Origin: Akkermansia sp.
GTDB lineage: Bacteria > Verrucomicrobiota > Verrucomicrobiia > Verrucomicrobiales > Akkermansiaceae
Direction of reading: 5' to 3'
DNA length: 64,000 nt
NCBI GenBank assembly: GCA_017549485.1
Contig: JAFYUT010000096.1
Location: forward strand, 1-64,000
The notes beneath the pieces are model-generated. The model searched no databases. It saw only the letters and a list, made by a program, of their open reading frames with translations, and was not told the origin of the DNA. The position numbers were made by a program, and so were the translations under genes. Positions 7,686-37,115 of this stretch are shown here, piece after piece (within the stretch, counting starts at the first letter, position 1; each line of letters begins with the position of its first letter).

Positions 7686-8504
7686 TTACGACATTTGGTC
7701 GTAGGCGTTGCGAACAAGCTGCATATTGGTGATGATGCGCTCCAAATCAGACAATTTTACCTGGTTGGGGCCATCACTCATGGCGTTGTCGGGGTCGCTG
7801 TGTACCTCCATGAACACGCCGTCAATGCCGGTTGCCATAGCAGCATTGGCCAGTACGGGGGCAAGGTCTCGGTCGCCACCGGTTGCACCACCCAGACCAC
7901 CGGGACGCTGCACGGAGTGAGTGGCATCAAATACTACGGGGCAGCCGAACTGGCGCATCCAGTACATGCCGCGCATGTCTACCACCAAATTATTGTAGCC
8001 GAATGTGGTGCCGCGCTCACAGAGCATGTATTTATCGCAGCCGAAAGCCTGCATCTTTTCACAGATGTTCTTGCAGTCCCAAGGGGCCAAGAACTGGCCT
8101 TTCTTGATGTTGACGGGGCGGCCGGTCTTGGCGCATGCCTCAAGCAGGTCGCTCTGGCGGCAAAGGAAAGCGGGAATTTGCAGCAAGTCAATGTACTGAG
8201 CAGCGTATTCGGCCTGCTCCTCAGTGTGTACATCTGTTACTACGGGAATTTGCAGTTCTTTACCGATTTCGGAGAGGATGCGGCAGCCCTCTTGAATACC
8301 CAGCCCGCGGAAGCTCTTAACGCTGGTGCGGTTCGCTTTGTCGTAAGAAGCTTTGAAGATGAAAGGAACACCCAGCTTTGTGCAGATTTCTTTAATGCTG
8401 CGAGCCATCTGCCAAGCAAATTCTTCATTCTCTAAAGAGCAGGGCCCGAGCAGGTAAAACGGAGCCTTGCCGCCGATTTCTACATTCTGAATATGGAAGG
8501 ACAT
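7686..8504 (-). CDS. kdsA: 3-deoxy-8-phosphooctulonate synthase (metal-dependent class)
   Basis: Condenses arabinose 5-phosphate with phosphoenolpyruvate to Kdo 8-phosphate, the committed step of the LPS inner-core sugar. The 272-residue protein has the GPC motif with Cys22 where the metal-independent E. coli enzyme has Asn. The other metal ligands (His in DATHSVQ, Glu in FMEVH, Asp in AMSDG) are also present, so it belongs to the metal-dependent class. KASYDKANR and RGTTFGYNNLVVD are the substrate motifs. A 12-residue upstream extension is open, but its start lies in the promoter, so 8504 is used. It heads the LPS operon. Confidence 0.95.
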   Translation of the reverse strand: MSFHIQNVEIGGKAPFYLLGPCSLENEEFAWQMARSIKEICTKLGVPFIFKASYDKANRTSVKSFRGLGIQEGCRILSEIGKELQIPVVTDVHTEEQAEYAAQYIDLLQIPAFLCRQSDLLEACAKTGRPVNIKKGQFLAPWDCKNICEKMQAFGCDKYMLCERGTTFGYNNLVVDMRGMYWMRQFGCPVVFDATHSVQRPGGLGGATGGDRDLAPVLANAAMATGIDGVFMEVHSDPDNAMSDGPNQVKLSDLERIITNMQLVRNAYDQMS

Positions 8505-31203: not shown

Positions 31204-31776
31204 TTACAGTTTGGGCCTGTAGTGCCCGGTCAAGGTATAGGTGAATAAATCGTCTTCTTCTTGAGTACCTGCACCGATATTGTGGATAATGAGAGGAACC
31301 CCATCTGCGTTTTTGCGGTCACTCACAATCATAATATGGGGTAACGTATCACCCAACAGGCAGGTCACGATGTCTCCGGCTTGATAATCTGCCGGATTTT
31401 CGCTAACCGGCAAACTCCAACCTTTGCGTTTGAAAAATGTTTGCAGATTCGGCACTCGGCGGTGGTCAATGTTACGGTCGGTGCGTTTCAGTCCCCAATT
31501 TTTTCTGCTGGGGTAAGCAGAGAAATTTTTTTTCATGTCCTCATGCACCTCTTTCTGTAGGTCGAAATGGAGTTGGCGCAGGGCTCGTATCACGACGTCG
31601 GTGCACACACCTCGATCCATGGGTACGTCTCCTCCCGGGTATGTCATGGAGACATACGAGGGGTCATATTCAATCGTAACGCCTATTTGCTCGCGGGCAA
31701 GGGCGGGCAATCTGCTGTCAGCATATAAGCTGCTGCCAATCAGAAAAAACAGGGTAATCAGGGGAGTTTTGTTCAT
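31204..31776 (-). CDS. DUF1287-family secreted protein (copy 2)
   Basis: A 190-residue exported protein with a signal peptide (MNKTPLITLFFLIGSSLYA). DUF1287 landmarks are GVCTDVVIRALRQL with the putative nucleophile Cys, IDHRRVPNL, AGDIVTC and PHIMIVSDRK with His, a Cys/His arrangement like NlpC/P60 cysteine peptidases. A cell-wall hydrolase role is therefore plausible but unproven for the family. It overlaps the stop of the upstream DUF1287 gene by 1 nt and is clearly its paralogue: the blocks VHEDMKKNF and IDHRRVPNL are identical in the two. It is the last gene of the six-gene operon. Confidence 0.88.
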   Translation of the reverse strand: MNKTPLITLFFLIGSSLYADSRLPALAREQIGVTIEYDPSYVSMTYPGGDVPMDRGVCTDVVIRALRQLHFDLQKEVHEDMKKNFSAYPSRKNWGLKRTDRNIDHRRVPNLQTFFKRKGWSLPVSENPADYQAGDIVTCLLGDTLPHIMIVSDRKNADGVPLIIHNIGAGTQEEDDLFTYTLTGHYRPKL

Positions 31777-32483
31777 TACTTTTTTTTCTTTTGTTGAGAT
31801 TTTTCTGGCTCCGGTAGCTGAATAGGTTGGTCGAAGACCGGGCGAAAGTGCCCGGTAATCGGAAACTCAAAAAGGTCATCATTTTCTTCTGTGCCTTTAC
31901 CGGAGTTATGAATGACTTTAGGAACCCCGGTTTCAGCGTGTTTCCTATCACTCACAATCATGATATGAGGGCGGCCGTGTGCTGCATCATAACAGGTTAC
32001 GAGGTCACCCGGTTTGTAGTCATCGGGATTGTCGGTCGGTTTTTCGGTTACAGTCCAACCGATGCGGGCGAAAAACAGCTCCAGATTCGGCACGCGCCGG
32101 TGATCGATGCTGGGGTCTGCGGTACGTTGGCGCCACAGTTTTCTGCCCGGGTAGCTGCGAAAGTTCTTCTTCATGTCTTCATGTACCAGCTCTTGCAGGT
32201 CTAATCCTTTCAGTCGCAAGGCACGTATGATGACATCCGTGCAAACGCCACTCTCTATGGGGACGTCTCCCATGGGGTATTCCAAATCTACATAATCCGG
32301 CGTATAGCTCACGGTAACGCCGATTTGCTGTCGCGCTAAGGCCGGCAAACTGTCCTTGTCCGGAGCAGGGGAGGGCGGTGCAATGGGCGCTTGCTGAGGC
32401 ATGAAAAAATACAGCCCGGCGCCCCCCGCACCGGCAAGCAGCAGGAGCACGCAACTGAGTATGAGTAAGCTTTTTTTCTTCAT
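31776..32483 (-). CDS. DUF1287-family protein with N-terminal membrane anchor (copy 1)
   Basis: A 235-residue paralogue of the next gene. It differs at the N-terminus, where a transmembrane helix (about residues 5-27, Leu/Ala/Gly rich) is followed by a Pro-rich linker, so it probably stays anchored and faces the periplasm. The same Cys/His blocks occur (GVCTDVIIRALRL, IDHRRVPNL, PGDLVTC, PHIMIVSDRK). The C-terminus ends in a basic QQKKKK tail. An upstream start at 32525 would overlap the nuclease-like gene and is not needed. The pair, one anchored and one secreted, suggests divided roles at the wall. Confidence 0.87.
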   Translation of the reverse strand: MKKKSLLILSCVLLLLAGAGGAGLYFFMPQQAPIAPPSPAPDKDSLPALARQQIGVTVSYTPDYVDLEYPMGDVPIESGVCTDVIIRALRLKGLDLQELVHEDMKKNFRSYPGRKLWRQRTADPSIDHRRVPNLELFFARIGWTVTEKPTDNPDDYKPGDLVTCYDAAHGRPHIMIVSDRKHAETGVPKVIHNSGKGTEENDDLFEFPITGHFRPVFDQPIQLPEPEKSQQKKKK

Positions 32484-32499
32484 GATGTAGGGGGCCGGT

Positions 32500-33264
32500 T
32501 CAGTTTTTCTTGCGGCGGTCGGCATGGTTGCCGCTCATGCCGGCTTTTCTTTCTTCTGCGCGTTGTTTCCAAAGCGGAATATCGGATTTGCGCGCTTTTC
32601 TTTGTTTTTTTGCAGCTTGTTTTTCTGCGTGGCGCGCTTGCTCTTTTGCCAACTTTGCTTCTTTTTCTCGAGCAAGCTTAGCTTCTTCCATGCGTTTCTG
32701 AATGCGAGAGGAGTGCGCATCTCCGGCAGAGGTTATGCTCCATGGCCCAATGCCGCCTGATTCTGTAATAGGCAGGCACAGCATATCCGGGTCTATGAAC
32801 CGAATCTGCCTGTACAGCAAGTCTTTGATGGTAGCCAGCAGGCTTTTCGGGGGGAACAAGCCCGTGCGTCCCAATTCTATGGTGAATGCCACGCGTATGC
32901 GTTTGGCTTGCAAACTCATTCGTGCTATATCCCGCAAGGATATGCCCTCTGCCGGTGTTTCTTCGGGGGCACAGAGAGCTGCTGCCCTTAATAAGAATAA
33001 GCAGTCTCTTACCTTGCGACACAGTTTTTCAACCAAGTCTTTTACCTTGGGCCGTGCATTGAATCGGTAGTCTTTCACCTCTACCAGCCATAATTCTTTT
33101 TTGCCGGGATGGTAGAGCACGAAGTCCATCTCCTTGCAGCTGTTACAGAAGTTTTGAGCATGGTGAGAGTAGAAAGGCGAGCATTCAAACCGACACACAT
33201 AATACCCCGCTTCAAAATTGAAGCGGTGCAATCCTTCCACACAGCTGGTACCGACCTGAAACAC
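32500..33264 (-). CDS. Putative PD-(D/E)XK-type nuclease, partner of the AAA ATPase
   Basis: A 254-residue protein without signal peptide. It shows a nuclease-like core: Asp47 in KEMDFVLYHP and Glu62-x-Lys64 in LWLVEVKDY, the D-x14-ExK spacing of PD-(D/E)XK enzymes, with candidate helix acids Glu18 or Glu27. Four Cys (24, 28, 40, 43) just before the core could bind zinc. The middle is mixed alpha/beta, and the C-terminal ~75 residues are a highly charged Lys/Ala/Glu coiled coil. It starts 2 nt after the stop of the ATPase gene, so the two are translationally coupled. The nuclease assignment rests on the motif alone. The pair resembles ATPase-plus-nuclease immune systems, but I cannot match it to a named one. 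Confidence 0.55.
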   Translation of the reverse strand: MFQVGTSCVEGLHRFNFEAGYYVCRFECSPFYSHHAQNFCNSCKEMDFVLYHPGKKELWLVEVKDYRFNARPKVKDLVEKLCRKVRDCLFLLRAAALCAPEETPAEGISLRDIARMSLQAKRIRVAFTIELGRTGLFPPKSLLATIKDLLYRQIRFIDPDMLCLPITESGGIGPWSITSAGDAHSSRIQKRMEEAKLAREKEAKLAKEQARHAEKQAAKKQRKARKSDIPLWKQRAEERKAGMSGNHADRRKKN

Positions 33265-33266
33265 GC

Positions 33267-34355
33267 TCAGGCTTCCTCCCCGGGGTTGTAGTTCATATTC
33301 AGGTAGCGGTCGGCTTGCTCCATTTCGGCATCAAGGCTATCGATATGGTCTATCTCTTCCAGAGAGTTTCCAGCCGAGGTGCGTACCCCCTGTGTGGATG
33401 AAAAGGAGGGTTGCATGCCGAAGAAACGTCTGCTGATTTCAGCATGCCGTTTTTCAGCAAGTTGAATCACCAGCTCACGCAGCATGAAGAGACTGTGAGT
33501 TGTAAGCATTACCTGAACACCCGCACGGCATAAGCCCATCAAAATACGTACCAAGAGTGGTAAATGCGAGGTGTTGAGGTTCATTTCAGGCTCATCCCAG
33601 AACAGCGCTGTGCCTGCGCGCACCGTGCCGTTGCCGATAAGTAATCCCAAGGTGCCGATGCGTTTGAATCCCTCTGCTACCAAATTCAGCTCTAAAGGTT
33701 CTTGCCCCGGGCGTTTCAGGAAGAAGCGCCCATTCATGCGTTGCAATCTGCCCGAGAGCAGGGTTTCGATTTGCTGTAATACATATTGCAGCGTCTCGGG
33801 GAGTACGGAGCCGTTCGGTTCTTCTTCCAAAGCGCGGCACAGTTCCCAGCTGGCGGAGTCCAGCAGCTCGGGATATCGCTTGCCGGCCTGCATGTAACAT
33901 GGGTATATGGAAAGTACCTCGCGGGGAGAGATGAATACTGCGTTCTCTGTTAAAAAACGCTGCGGTAATTTGTCGATATGCAGCCCCTCTTCCTCATTGT
34001 CGGCTTTGAACCCGAAACTGAGGTCTGCGGAACCGAGGGGGACTTTGTAGCCCTCCAATGAGGCCTTGATATGAGCCGTAGAATTACCGCGATTACGGGC
34101 GGTGAGAGATGTGAGGTTATGGGTGCCGTATACTCGCAGCAAGTCGCGGCGCAGTCGCTTTTCCTCAGCCCATACCTCGGGTAATTCACGTCTGGCTCCG
34201 TCGCATCCCCACTTGGTAATGGCATAGCAGAGCTTCATGAGGTGACTTTTGCCGGAGTCATTGCCACCCACAATGATATTGAGTCCGGGGACAAAGGAGA
34301 ATGTCTCCCTGTTCGGGAAAACCGTCACTCCCTCCACTACCAGTTTACGTATCAT
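33267..34355 (-). CDS. AAA/SMC-like ATPase
   Basis: A 362-residue ATPase of the AAA_15/AAA_21 (SMC-related, OLD-like) type. It starts with the typical VVEGVTVFPNRETFSF strand, then Walker A GGNDSGKS near residues 30-37 after LNIIVG. Late in the protein follow FWDEPEMNLN (Walker B with the catalytic Glu) and MLTTHSLFMLRELV (switch His). No TOPRIM domain is present, unlike OLD nucleases; the nuclease function may be supplied in trans by the next gene, 2 nt downstream. It lies 20 nt after the nitroreductase gene inside a chromosomal operon. The role could be defence, DNA repair or an unknown one. Confidence 0.8.
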   Translation of the reverse strand: MIRKLVVEGVTVFPNRETFSFVPGLNIIVGGNDSGKSHLMKLCYAITKWGCDGARRELPEVWAEEKRLRRDLLRVYGTHNLTSLTARNRGNSTAHIKASLEGYKVPLGSADLSFGFKADNEEEGLHIDKLPQRFLTENAVFISPREVLSIYPCYMQAGKRYPELLDSASWELCRALEEEPNGSVLPETLQYVLQQIETLLSGRLQRMNGRFFLKRPGQEPLELNLVAEGFKRIGTLGLLIGNGTVRAGTALFWDEPEMNLNTSHLPLLVRILMGLCRAGVQVMLTTHSLFMLRELVIQLAEKRHAEISRRFFGMQPSFSSTQGVRTSAGNSLEEIDHIDSLDAEMEQADRYLNMNYNPGEEA

Positions 34356-35477: not shown

Positions 35478-37115
35478 TTAACGGGGCAAAATAGATGAAA
35501 TTTGACGTGTGATGTTGAGGTGGCGTTGTTGCAGGGGCTTAAGCAGGGAATCATTGCGCTCCACCTTGCGTCTGGGCTCGGTGTAAAGCTGGCGGTACGC
35601 CGCAACACGCGAAGTGAGGAGTGCTTTAATATCTTCTCCCATGCCGGTAAGCATGGTTTCTTGCAGCTTTTCTGCTAAATGGACAAAATCTTTGCGAATG
35701 GAACGCGCTGTTGATAAATGCAAAAGACTCCCGATGACCCATACGATACCGGTGCTCACCAGCATCCAAGTGGCGGCCATGGTCATGTTAAGAAATCCCA
35801 GCACACCCGCGCTGATTAAGCAAAGGCAAATGATGAAGATGAAAAGCTGCATCCATTGTGTACATGACTCGAATATCTCAGAAATGCGGCGGCGCATTTT
35901 GTCTTGTGAGAACGGTTTGTAGAGATTGCGGCTTAAACGGGTGCGTAAGTTGCTGAGTTCTTTGTGAAGCTCTTGTTCCGGAAAATCACCGATTTCGCAC
36001 TCCATGGATTTTTTCATGCGAGGGCGCACATGGGCCCAGTGCCCGGCGCATGAGGCAACAAAGTTGGCATCGCTCACCTCTTGCCGACTGAGAATTTCTT
36101 TGCAAAGTTTGTTGTAATAATACTGCTCTGCACCCGGCCCGAAGCGGTTGAGCCGCACTAGCGTTACCGGTGAAAGCCAATGCCCGAAAGCTCGTTTCAA
36201 CGCAGTCAATGTGGCGGGCAGGGCTTGGATGGCGGCGTCGGAGTATGCATCGGTATAATTTTTGATGCCCGTCAATTGGTGTGAAAGGAAATTGTCAATT
36301 TCGCGGTCAATGCTGTTCAGGAAACCATTGTCATTTTGAGAGACAGCTTCACGCGCTCGCAGAATTTGGTATTGACGGTTGAGGAGGTCATTGGACAAGT
36401 CGATGACTTTTCGTATGGCGGCGCGCAAGCCGTAGGGGGAGTTCAAGGCTTCTTGTACGCGTTGGGTGAAGCCCTCCATGCCTTTCATGGTTGTGGGGCT
36501 GATAAAGTACAACGCCGGGGTGCTGCTCAGTCTCTTGCGGCAGAACTCTCTCAGACTGTCTTTAAGTCTCAGTGCGTCTTCTGCTGCTAATTTATCCGTG
36601 TGAGTAATGGCAATCAAGGCAGCGCTGCGGCGTTCTTGCGGCAGTGCTGCCAGTATATCCCATACCGCAGCTTCATCTGTTTTGCGGGCATCTACCACGG
36701 CAATTACCACATCTGCTGTTTGGGCGAGAGCCAGTAGTGTCTCGCGTGCGCTTTCTTGTTCGGCTCCGGTGGTGTCGGTCAATTCCAAGCCTTCCAAGTT
36801 TTCCAGAGGAATGAAAGTAGAACAGGTGGCATCTCCATCATTATTGCGATATCGCCAGCAGCGGTAATCGTCCGTCATTTCTGTTTTGGCTATGGCCGGG
36901 TACTGAAGCAACCCGGCAAGCAGTGAGGATTTGCCACTTTTGCTGTCGCCCAAAAACACAACGCGCCTATCTCTGTCCAATACTTTTATGGCATCTTCGA
37001 TAGGTTTTGTGTATTCTGTAAGGGTTTCATCATCAATGTCTGTACAAAGTTCTATCACCTGTCCTGCCCAATGGCGCGTCAGGCTTTCTTCTTTTCTGTA
37101 CCCTCTTTGCAGCAT
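35478..37115 (-). CDS. Dynamin-like membrane GTPase
   Basis: A 545-residue GTPase. G1/P-loop GDSKSGKSS is at residues 56-64, a conserved Thr in CSTF may be G2, DTTG is G3, and THTDKL takes the place of the usual N/TKxD at G4. After the G domain (to about 240) comes a long helical region, then two adjacent transmembrane helices around residues 418-436 and 444-463 and a final helical segment. This G domain, helical stalk and paired membrane helices are as in bacterial dynamin-like proteins, which remodel or protect membranes. Many such proteins come in pairs; here only one is encoded. The promoter lies 11 nt before the ATG. Confidence 0.75.
   Translation of the reverse strand: MLQRGYRKEESLTRHWAGQVIELCTDIDDETLTEYTKPIEDAIKVLDRDRRVVFLGDSKSGKSSLLAGLLQYPAIAKTEMTDDYRCWRYRNNDGDATCSTFIPLENLEGLELTDTTGAEQESARETLLALAQTADVVIAVVDARKTDEAAVWDILAALPQERRSAALIAITHTDKLAAEDALRLKDSLREFCRKRLSSTPALYFISPTTMKGMEGFTQRVQEALNSPYGLRAAIRKVIDLSNDLLNRQYQILRAREAVSQNDNGFLNSIDREIDNFLSHQLTGIKNYTDAYSDAAIQALPATLTALKRAFGHWLSPVTLVRLNRFGPGAEQYYYNKLCKEILSRQEVSDANFVASCAGHWAHVRPRMKKSMECEIGDFPEQELHKELSNLRTRLSRNLYKPFSQDKMRRRISEIFESCTQWMQLFIFIICLCLISAGVLGFLNMTMAATWMLVSTGIVWVIGSLLHLSTARSIRKDFVHLAEKLQETMLTGMGEDIKALLTSRVAAYRQLYTEPRRKVERNDSLLKPLQQRHLNITRQISSILPR

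Follow-up and report, generated by a model that had tools for sequence, protein, structure and literature searches.

An ATPase and predicted nuclease gene pair of the HEC-02 kind, fixed in the genus Akkermansia

Two adjacent genes of Akkermansia, encoding an ABC/SMC-head ATPase (A) and a predicted PD-(D/E)XK-type nuclease (N), form a genus-fixed variant of HEC-02, that is, of the kind in which an OLD-ABC ATPase is coupled to a PD-(D/E)XK protein. The kind is known; what is new here is the fixation, for in Akkermansia the pair belongs to the core genome and is inherited vertically. It probably serves as a stand-alone anti-phage effector of the HEC-02 type, ancient and fixed, in which A would hold and trigger N. 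Most anti-phage modules are gained and lost between strains, and a defence-type module inherited vertically across nearly a whole gut-bacterial genus is uncommon; such a module can be set cleanly against its mobile relatives.

The pair lies in the window, by which is meant the whole stretch of 64,000 nucleotides that was analysed (contig JAFYUT010000096.1, positions 1 to 64,000). When the sequence was read again, the coordinates of the open reading frames, their spacing of 2 nt and the named motifs of A and N were all as the earlier note had given them. The parts of the unit are as follows.

33267..34355, minus strand: gene A, start ATG, 362 aa; ABC/SMC-head (OLD/PtuA-type) ATPase, the ATPase component of HEC-02 (from the open reading frame, profile and structure)
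32500..33264, minus strand: gene N, start GTG, 254 aa; predicted PD-(D/E)XK-type nuclease, the partner component of HEC-02 (from the open reading frame, profile and model)
33276..33280, minus strand: Shine-Dalgarno-like GGAGG for N, within the 3' end of A and upstream of the GTG (from the sequence)

In the window both genes are on the same (minus) strand, and the 2 nt separate the end of A from the GTG start of N. The layout is much the same in the 67 core Akkermansia loci surveyed: both reading frames are open, and the genes share up to 11 nt or leave a gap of no more than 18 nt, a single gap of 101 nt excepted. Once duplicates and one locus cut by a contig end are removed, these loci yield 62 distinct pairs.

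As for distribution, the pair is present in 69 of 76 Akkermansia genomes, always adjacent, and in 53 of the 55 of good quality (counted from tables); the strict co-occurrence of N with the ATPase, which had been set beforehand as a check, is thus what the genus displays. Sampling of other genera of the Akkermansia family turned up no such pair, and the nuclease profile was seen in 7 of the 152 genera of a phylum sample. In genome G073 the pair is at 413070-414918. In the tree, the core ATPases make up one clade (support 100/100) on a long branch. When the trees of A, N and the marker glutamine synthetase III are compared, 62-76% of quartets agree, against about 33% when labels are shuffled, which implies that the pair has been passed on mainly vertically and is as old as the sampled genus. 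A recent horizontal gain by the window's genome is ruled out by this agreement and by the genus-wide presence. The pair is also under purifying selection, with median dN/dS values of 0.28 (A) and 0.19 (N). Along N, the ratio of dN to the dS of the gene is 0.10 over residues 1-180, 0.58 in the charged linker and 0.24 in the last 26 residues. Both the vertical inheritance and the purifying selection are established by computation.

Could such a pair persist simply because it is difficult to lose? The tight translational coupling and strict pairing would suit a toxin-antitoxin-like or addiction pair, in which free N would be toxic, A would restrain it and the genes would persist by post-segregational killing; PARIS AriA-AriB acts in a related way. 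This explanation is improbable. Alone, it leaves unexplained why a pair on the chromosome should be inherited vertically throughout the genus and keep constrained residues, and no lone A or lone N, as partner loss would leave, was seen in the core clade.

The identity of the pair follows from profile searches. A matches the PADLOC profile HEC-02B (PDLC04146) at 1.8e-66, with residues 1-354 aligned to positions 1-342 of 344, and N matches HEC-02A (PDLC04145) at 9.5e-22, with residues 9-159 aligned to positions 6-150 of 170. Assignment to HEC-02 means matches to both PADLOC profiles together with gene adjacency, all of which were found, N being longer than its profile. HEC-02 is Hma-embedded candidate 02 of PADLOC; the HEC candidates reportedly come from a guilt-by-embedding approach described in a preprint. 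A literature search returned no paper naming HEC-02. According to a 2026 survey of BREX, the nucleases that accompany OLD-ABC ATPases in BREX and BREX-related (BR) loci are of PD-(D/E)XK and further alternative types; the survey proposes that the OLD-ABC protein senses the phage and that the nuclease acts as a backup effector, perhaps a suicidal one (PMC12839542). Because of the HEC-02 matches and of the pairs in that survey, the Akkermansia genes are not undescribed as a kind, and the candidate undescribed system of the earlier note is ruled out. Its two-gene unit of ATPase and nuclease is borne out by the motifs, the HEC-02 profiles and the pairing; homology, motifs and pairing are computationally established. 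With HEC-02 the genes share their make-up, an ATPase beside a small partner of the PD-(D/E)XK type, and both match its profiles. The Akkermansia form differs in being chromosomal, genus-core, outside Hma and in a clade of its own, and its N is longer and has, besides, four cysteines and a conserved motif in the tail.

The ATPase carries the following motifs, scored over 18 diverse sequences.

34245..34268, minus strand: Walker A GGNDSGKS, A residues 30-37; G30, N32, G35 and K36 invariant
33660..33683, minus strand: LVAEGFKR, resembling an ABC signature, A residues 225-232; A227, E228 and G229 invariant
33573..33602, minus strand: Walker B FWDEPEMNLN, A residues 252-261; D254, E255, P256 and E257 invariant
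33495..33497, minus strand: switch histidine H287 of A; invariant

A is an ABC/SMC-head ATPase of the OLD/PtuA group: Walker A, Walker B (in a stretch that reads LFWDEPEMNLN over residues 251-261), the switch histidine and the head fold are all present. It matches the AAA_21 profile at 8.3e-16, and the closest solved ATPase by sequence profile is PtuA of the Septu/retron type (4.4e-14). The model of A matches ABC heads with Z scores of 15.7-18.7 over 247-301 residues; the heads of SMC, PtuA and Rad50 are tied at about 17-19, with 17.8 for Septu/retron PtuA. Of the label AAA/SMC-like that A had been given, the SMC-head part is upheld by profile and structure, and "AAA" is loose.

Several known systems are close to the pair. 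PtuA of Septu and of retron Eco7 (Ec78) is like A by profile and tied for best in structure, but its partner PtuB is an HNH nuclease, whereas N is of the PD-(D/E)XK type; the HNH partner that defines Septu is missing from the pair. PARIS AriA-AriB and Gabija GajA likewise couple an OLD-type ABC ATPase to a nuclease, but theirs is a TOPRIM domain, as in OLD nucleases, and neither A nor N gave a match to one. Rad50-Mre11 and SMC share the ATPase head fold of A, with equal structural scores, but N is not an Mre11-type nuclease and A has no long coiled coil. In profile searches neither A nor N matched TOPRIM or HNH, and a TOPRIM, HNH or UvrD-like partner is ruled out, in keeping with the absence of such signatures remarked on earlier.

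The conserved positions of the partner are these.

33124..33126, minus strand: D47 of N, catalytic-type; invariant in 21 diverse sequences
33073..33081, minus strand: E62-V-K64 of N; E62 invariant and K64 in at least 90% of 21 diverse sequences
33013..33015, minus strand: K84 of N, lying in the helix that follows the motif; unchanged across 21 diverse sequences
33136..33195, minus strand: region of four cysteines of N (C24, C28, C40, C43), a possible metal site; invariant in 62 distinct Akkermansia sequences
32503..32724, minus strand: charged helical tail of N, residues 181-254, in the Akkermansia core form only; helix over 186-225 in the model
32548..32577, minus strand: PxWKxRxxxR, N residues 230-239; P230, W232, K233, R235 and R239 invariant in 62 distinct sequences

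N has the D ... (D/E)-x-K core of the PD-(D/E)XK superfamily, here with 14 residues between D47 and E62 (D-x14-E-x-K). The 21 diverse sequences comprise 13 relatives outside the core clade and 8 core sequences, with identities to the window down to 17%; K64 is present in 19 or 20 of them, an R being aligned in the BREX-2 protein of Polaromonas. D47, E62, K64, D65 and K84 are kept in the 62 distinct Akkermansia sequences. The pattern is not due to chance, since the four cysteines together with D47, E62, K64 and D65 are invariant in the 62 distinct pairs. The PD-(D/E)XK-type core that the earlier note had read in N is upheld by the alignment, and the conservation of D47, E62 and K64 in homologues, one of its checks, came out in favour. 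The four cysteines themselves are not conserved among the outside relatives of the 21-sequence alignment. As a separate observation, the nuclease homologues at two loci (L153, L154) have a Cys-rich stretch of their own inserted before the catalytic D, where N has C24-C43.

With regard to the fold of N, the model has a pLDDT of 75.9 and was built from 31 sequences, the alignments for the structure models being shallow (window sequences and related loci found here). D47 opens the first of two strands (48-52) and E62 closes the second (57-62), a helix follows at 74-98, and this order of elements fits the PD-(D/E)XK core. In a VIA comparison of residues 8-180, many PD-(D/E)XK enzymes are among the best matches (Z 4-7, top 7.2), including the nuclease domains of FokI, CdiA-CT, Can2, BsmI, XisH, LmuA, HamA, McrC and Shedu. 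Such Z scores, at most 7.2, are insufficient on their own to prove the fold of the modelled protein, and Foldseek with the model gave no match at E <0.001. Searches of PDB sequences with N or its family profile gave nothing significant, the best being Shedu SduA at 0.37 over a stretch that spans the motif. The structural check proposed earlier thus speaks for the fold in element order and in the kind of enzymes matched, and falls short in Z and in Foldseek E. A PD-(D/E)XK fold is likely for N, not proven, and the conserved motif is the stronger evidence for it. The moderate fold match would also agree with an N that is no longer a nuclease and whose PD-(D/E)XK-like domain persists to bind DNA or to partner A structurally. 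That is very hard to credit, because D47, E62, K64 and K84 stand in all 62 distinct core sequences and in nearly all distant relatives.

The tail of N, about 75 aa, is missing in 13 of the 13 outside relatives aligned, and N is accordingly about 250-265 aa long in Akkermansia versus 166-195 aa in most outside relatives. Its linker is variable and its end more constrained. What had been called a charged coiled-coil tail is charged and, in the model, helical.

Relatives outside the core clade were found in several contexts. Pairs like HEC-02 lie between HmaB and HmaC genes (G320, L151), between a DUF1156 methylase and HmaC (G109, L084), after brxC (G135, L086) and, on viral contig L162, between brxC-like and pglX genes, these four contexts having been checked by profiles. 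By eye, from sequence resemblance, another on viral contig L160 lies between brxC-like and pglX-like genes, and one in G363 (L154) adjoins an HmaC-like gene; according to the record annotation, a further one (L149) is flanked by pglX and pglZ in a BREX-2 locus on a plasmid. More such pairs occur on other plasmids, on a viral contig and also alone. Scanning viral contigs with the window's own A returned nothing, and with the family alignment it returned 7 loci. The Akkermansia pair shows that pairs of the HEC-02 type exist outside Hma and BREX loci, and presumably act there too.

Three Akkermansia genomes have a second HEC-02-like pair, of another clade (L081 in G058, L082 in G034, L083 in G064). 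It lies outside the core clade, its ATPase is about 30% identical and its nuclease has no long C-terminal tail. In the Hma-type loci L151 and L154 the ATPase reading frames start with about 85-130 additional residues, which may be a fused domain.

The surroundings of the Akkermansia pair are of another sort. In the window, a nitroreductase gene, A, N and two DUF1287 genes form a co-directional run, so that the "housekeeping-like operon" of the earlier note holds for this genome; conservation of the neighbours beyond near relatives does not hold, and the flanks change between clades. In other Akkermansia clades the pair adjoins ribosomal protein genes or lies near ftsH and mutS. A functional link with neighbouring housekeeping genes is ruled out because they differ between clades. 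The neighbours, not being conserved with the pair, do not favour a repair role. The pair of the window is not in a defence island, as had been stated, and no recognised defence gene is beside it. Two genes nearby may be recorded in their own right. A 545-aa GTPase (35478-37115, minus strand), with a possible C-terminal membrane segment, matches MMR_HSR1 (6.6e-6), weakly Dynamin_N, and LeoA of PADLOC (8e-4), and is near the pair only in the nearest clade. The tandem DUF1287 genes (31204-32525, minus strand), directly downstream of N, are found there only in the window's part of the genus.

The BREX/BR auxiliary effectors of the survey share the domain pair, and relatives found here do lie in such loci; the Akkermansia pair does not. 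No BREX or BR/Hma genes are near it in the window, and the markers searched are missing in nearly all Akkermansia: DUF499 is present in 2 of 76 genomes and PglZ above the cut-off in 5 of 76, neither of them in the window's genome (G000). For want of such a locus nearby, and with the markers so rare, the pair is not classed as an auxiliary effector, as its relatives are. Dependence on BREX/Hma in trans is ruled out by the marker counts, and the pair must act by itself or through partners of another kind; its independence of BREX/Hma is a computed result.

Anti-phage modules are seldom core and vertically inherited, and a gene set of that sort fits a cellular role equally. For this reason a serious rival is a domesticated genome-maintenance pair, a former defence module now in repair or damage processing, where A would play the part of a Rad50/SMC head and N would supply the nuclease. 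The strong constraint on the nuclease domain, the lack of defence genes beside the pair and the structural closeness of A to Rad50 and SMC heads as much as to PtuA are all in its favour. It is nevertheless rather unlikely: all relatives with informative context are in defence loci or mobile elements, and the neighbours are neither repair genes nor conserved. Moreover, two genomes of good quality, G028 (98% complete) and G030 (93%), yielded no such pair although their sister species carry it, which argues against an essential role; an empty-site comparison for G030 found a single flanking gene shared.

How, then, would a stand-alone anti-phage effector work? For the pair we infer ATPase and nuclease activity, a complex, a trigger, a target and a protective effect. 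PtuA-PtuB, AriA-AriB and the BREX-embedded pairs suggest by analogy how A most likely acts: it would keep N in an ATP-bound complex and, on an infection cue, free or activate it. A would bind ATP as a dimer or higher oligomer and hold the predicted nuclease. A trigger made during infection, perhaps a phage protein or an abnormal DNA structure, would alter the state of A; N would then be released or activated and would cut DNA, either that of the phage or, abortively, that of the cell itself. Once mobile, the module would have been fixed in the ancestor of the genus as a stand-alone chromosomal pair, and N would have gained its basic helical tail, which probably binds A or DNA.

A broader proposal, possible but not probable, is that the Akkermansia ancestor domesticated, on a single occasion, a mobile defence module that became an always-present pair, serving either as an innate anti-phage layer independent of BREX/Hma or in genome maintenance, and that the genus-specific tail and Cys site altered the control of the nuclease by the ATPase. 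Among the species of the genus is A. muciniphila, for which transposon mutants have been used (PMC13343947), so that phage protection versus cellular service of a fixed pair is directly testable.

A last, minor observation concerns a short dispersed repeat of about 40-65 nt beside the pair in G003 (L091, about 7999-8065). It occurs in tens of copies per genome, on both strands, in G001, G003 and G030, and resembles a REP-type element of this clade.
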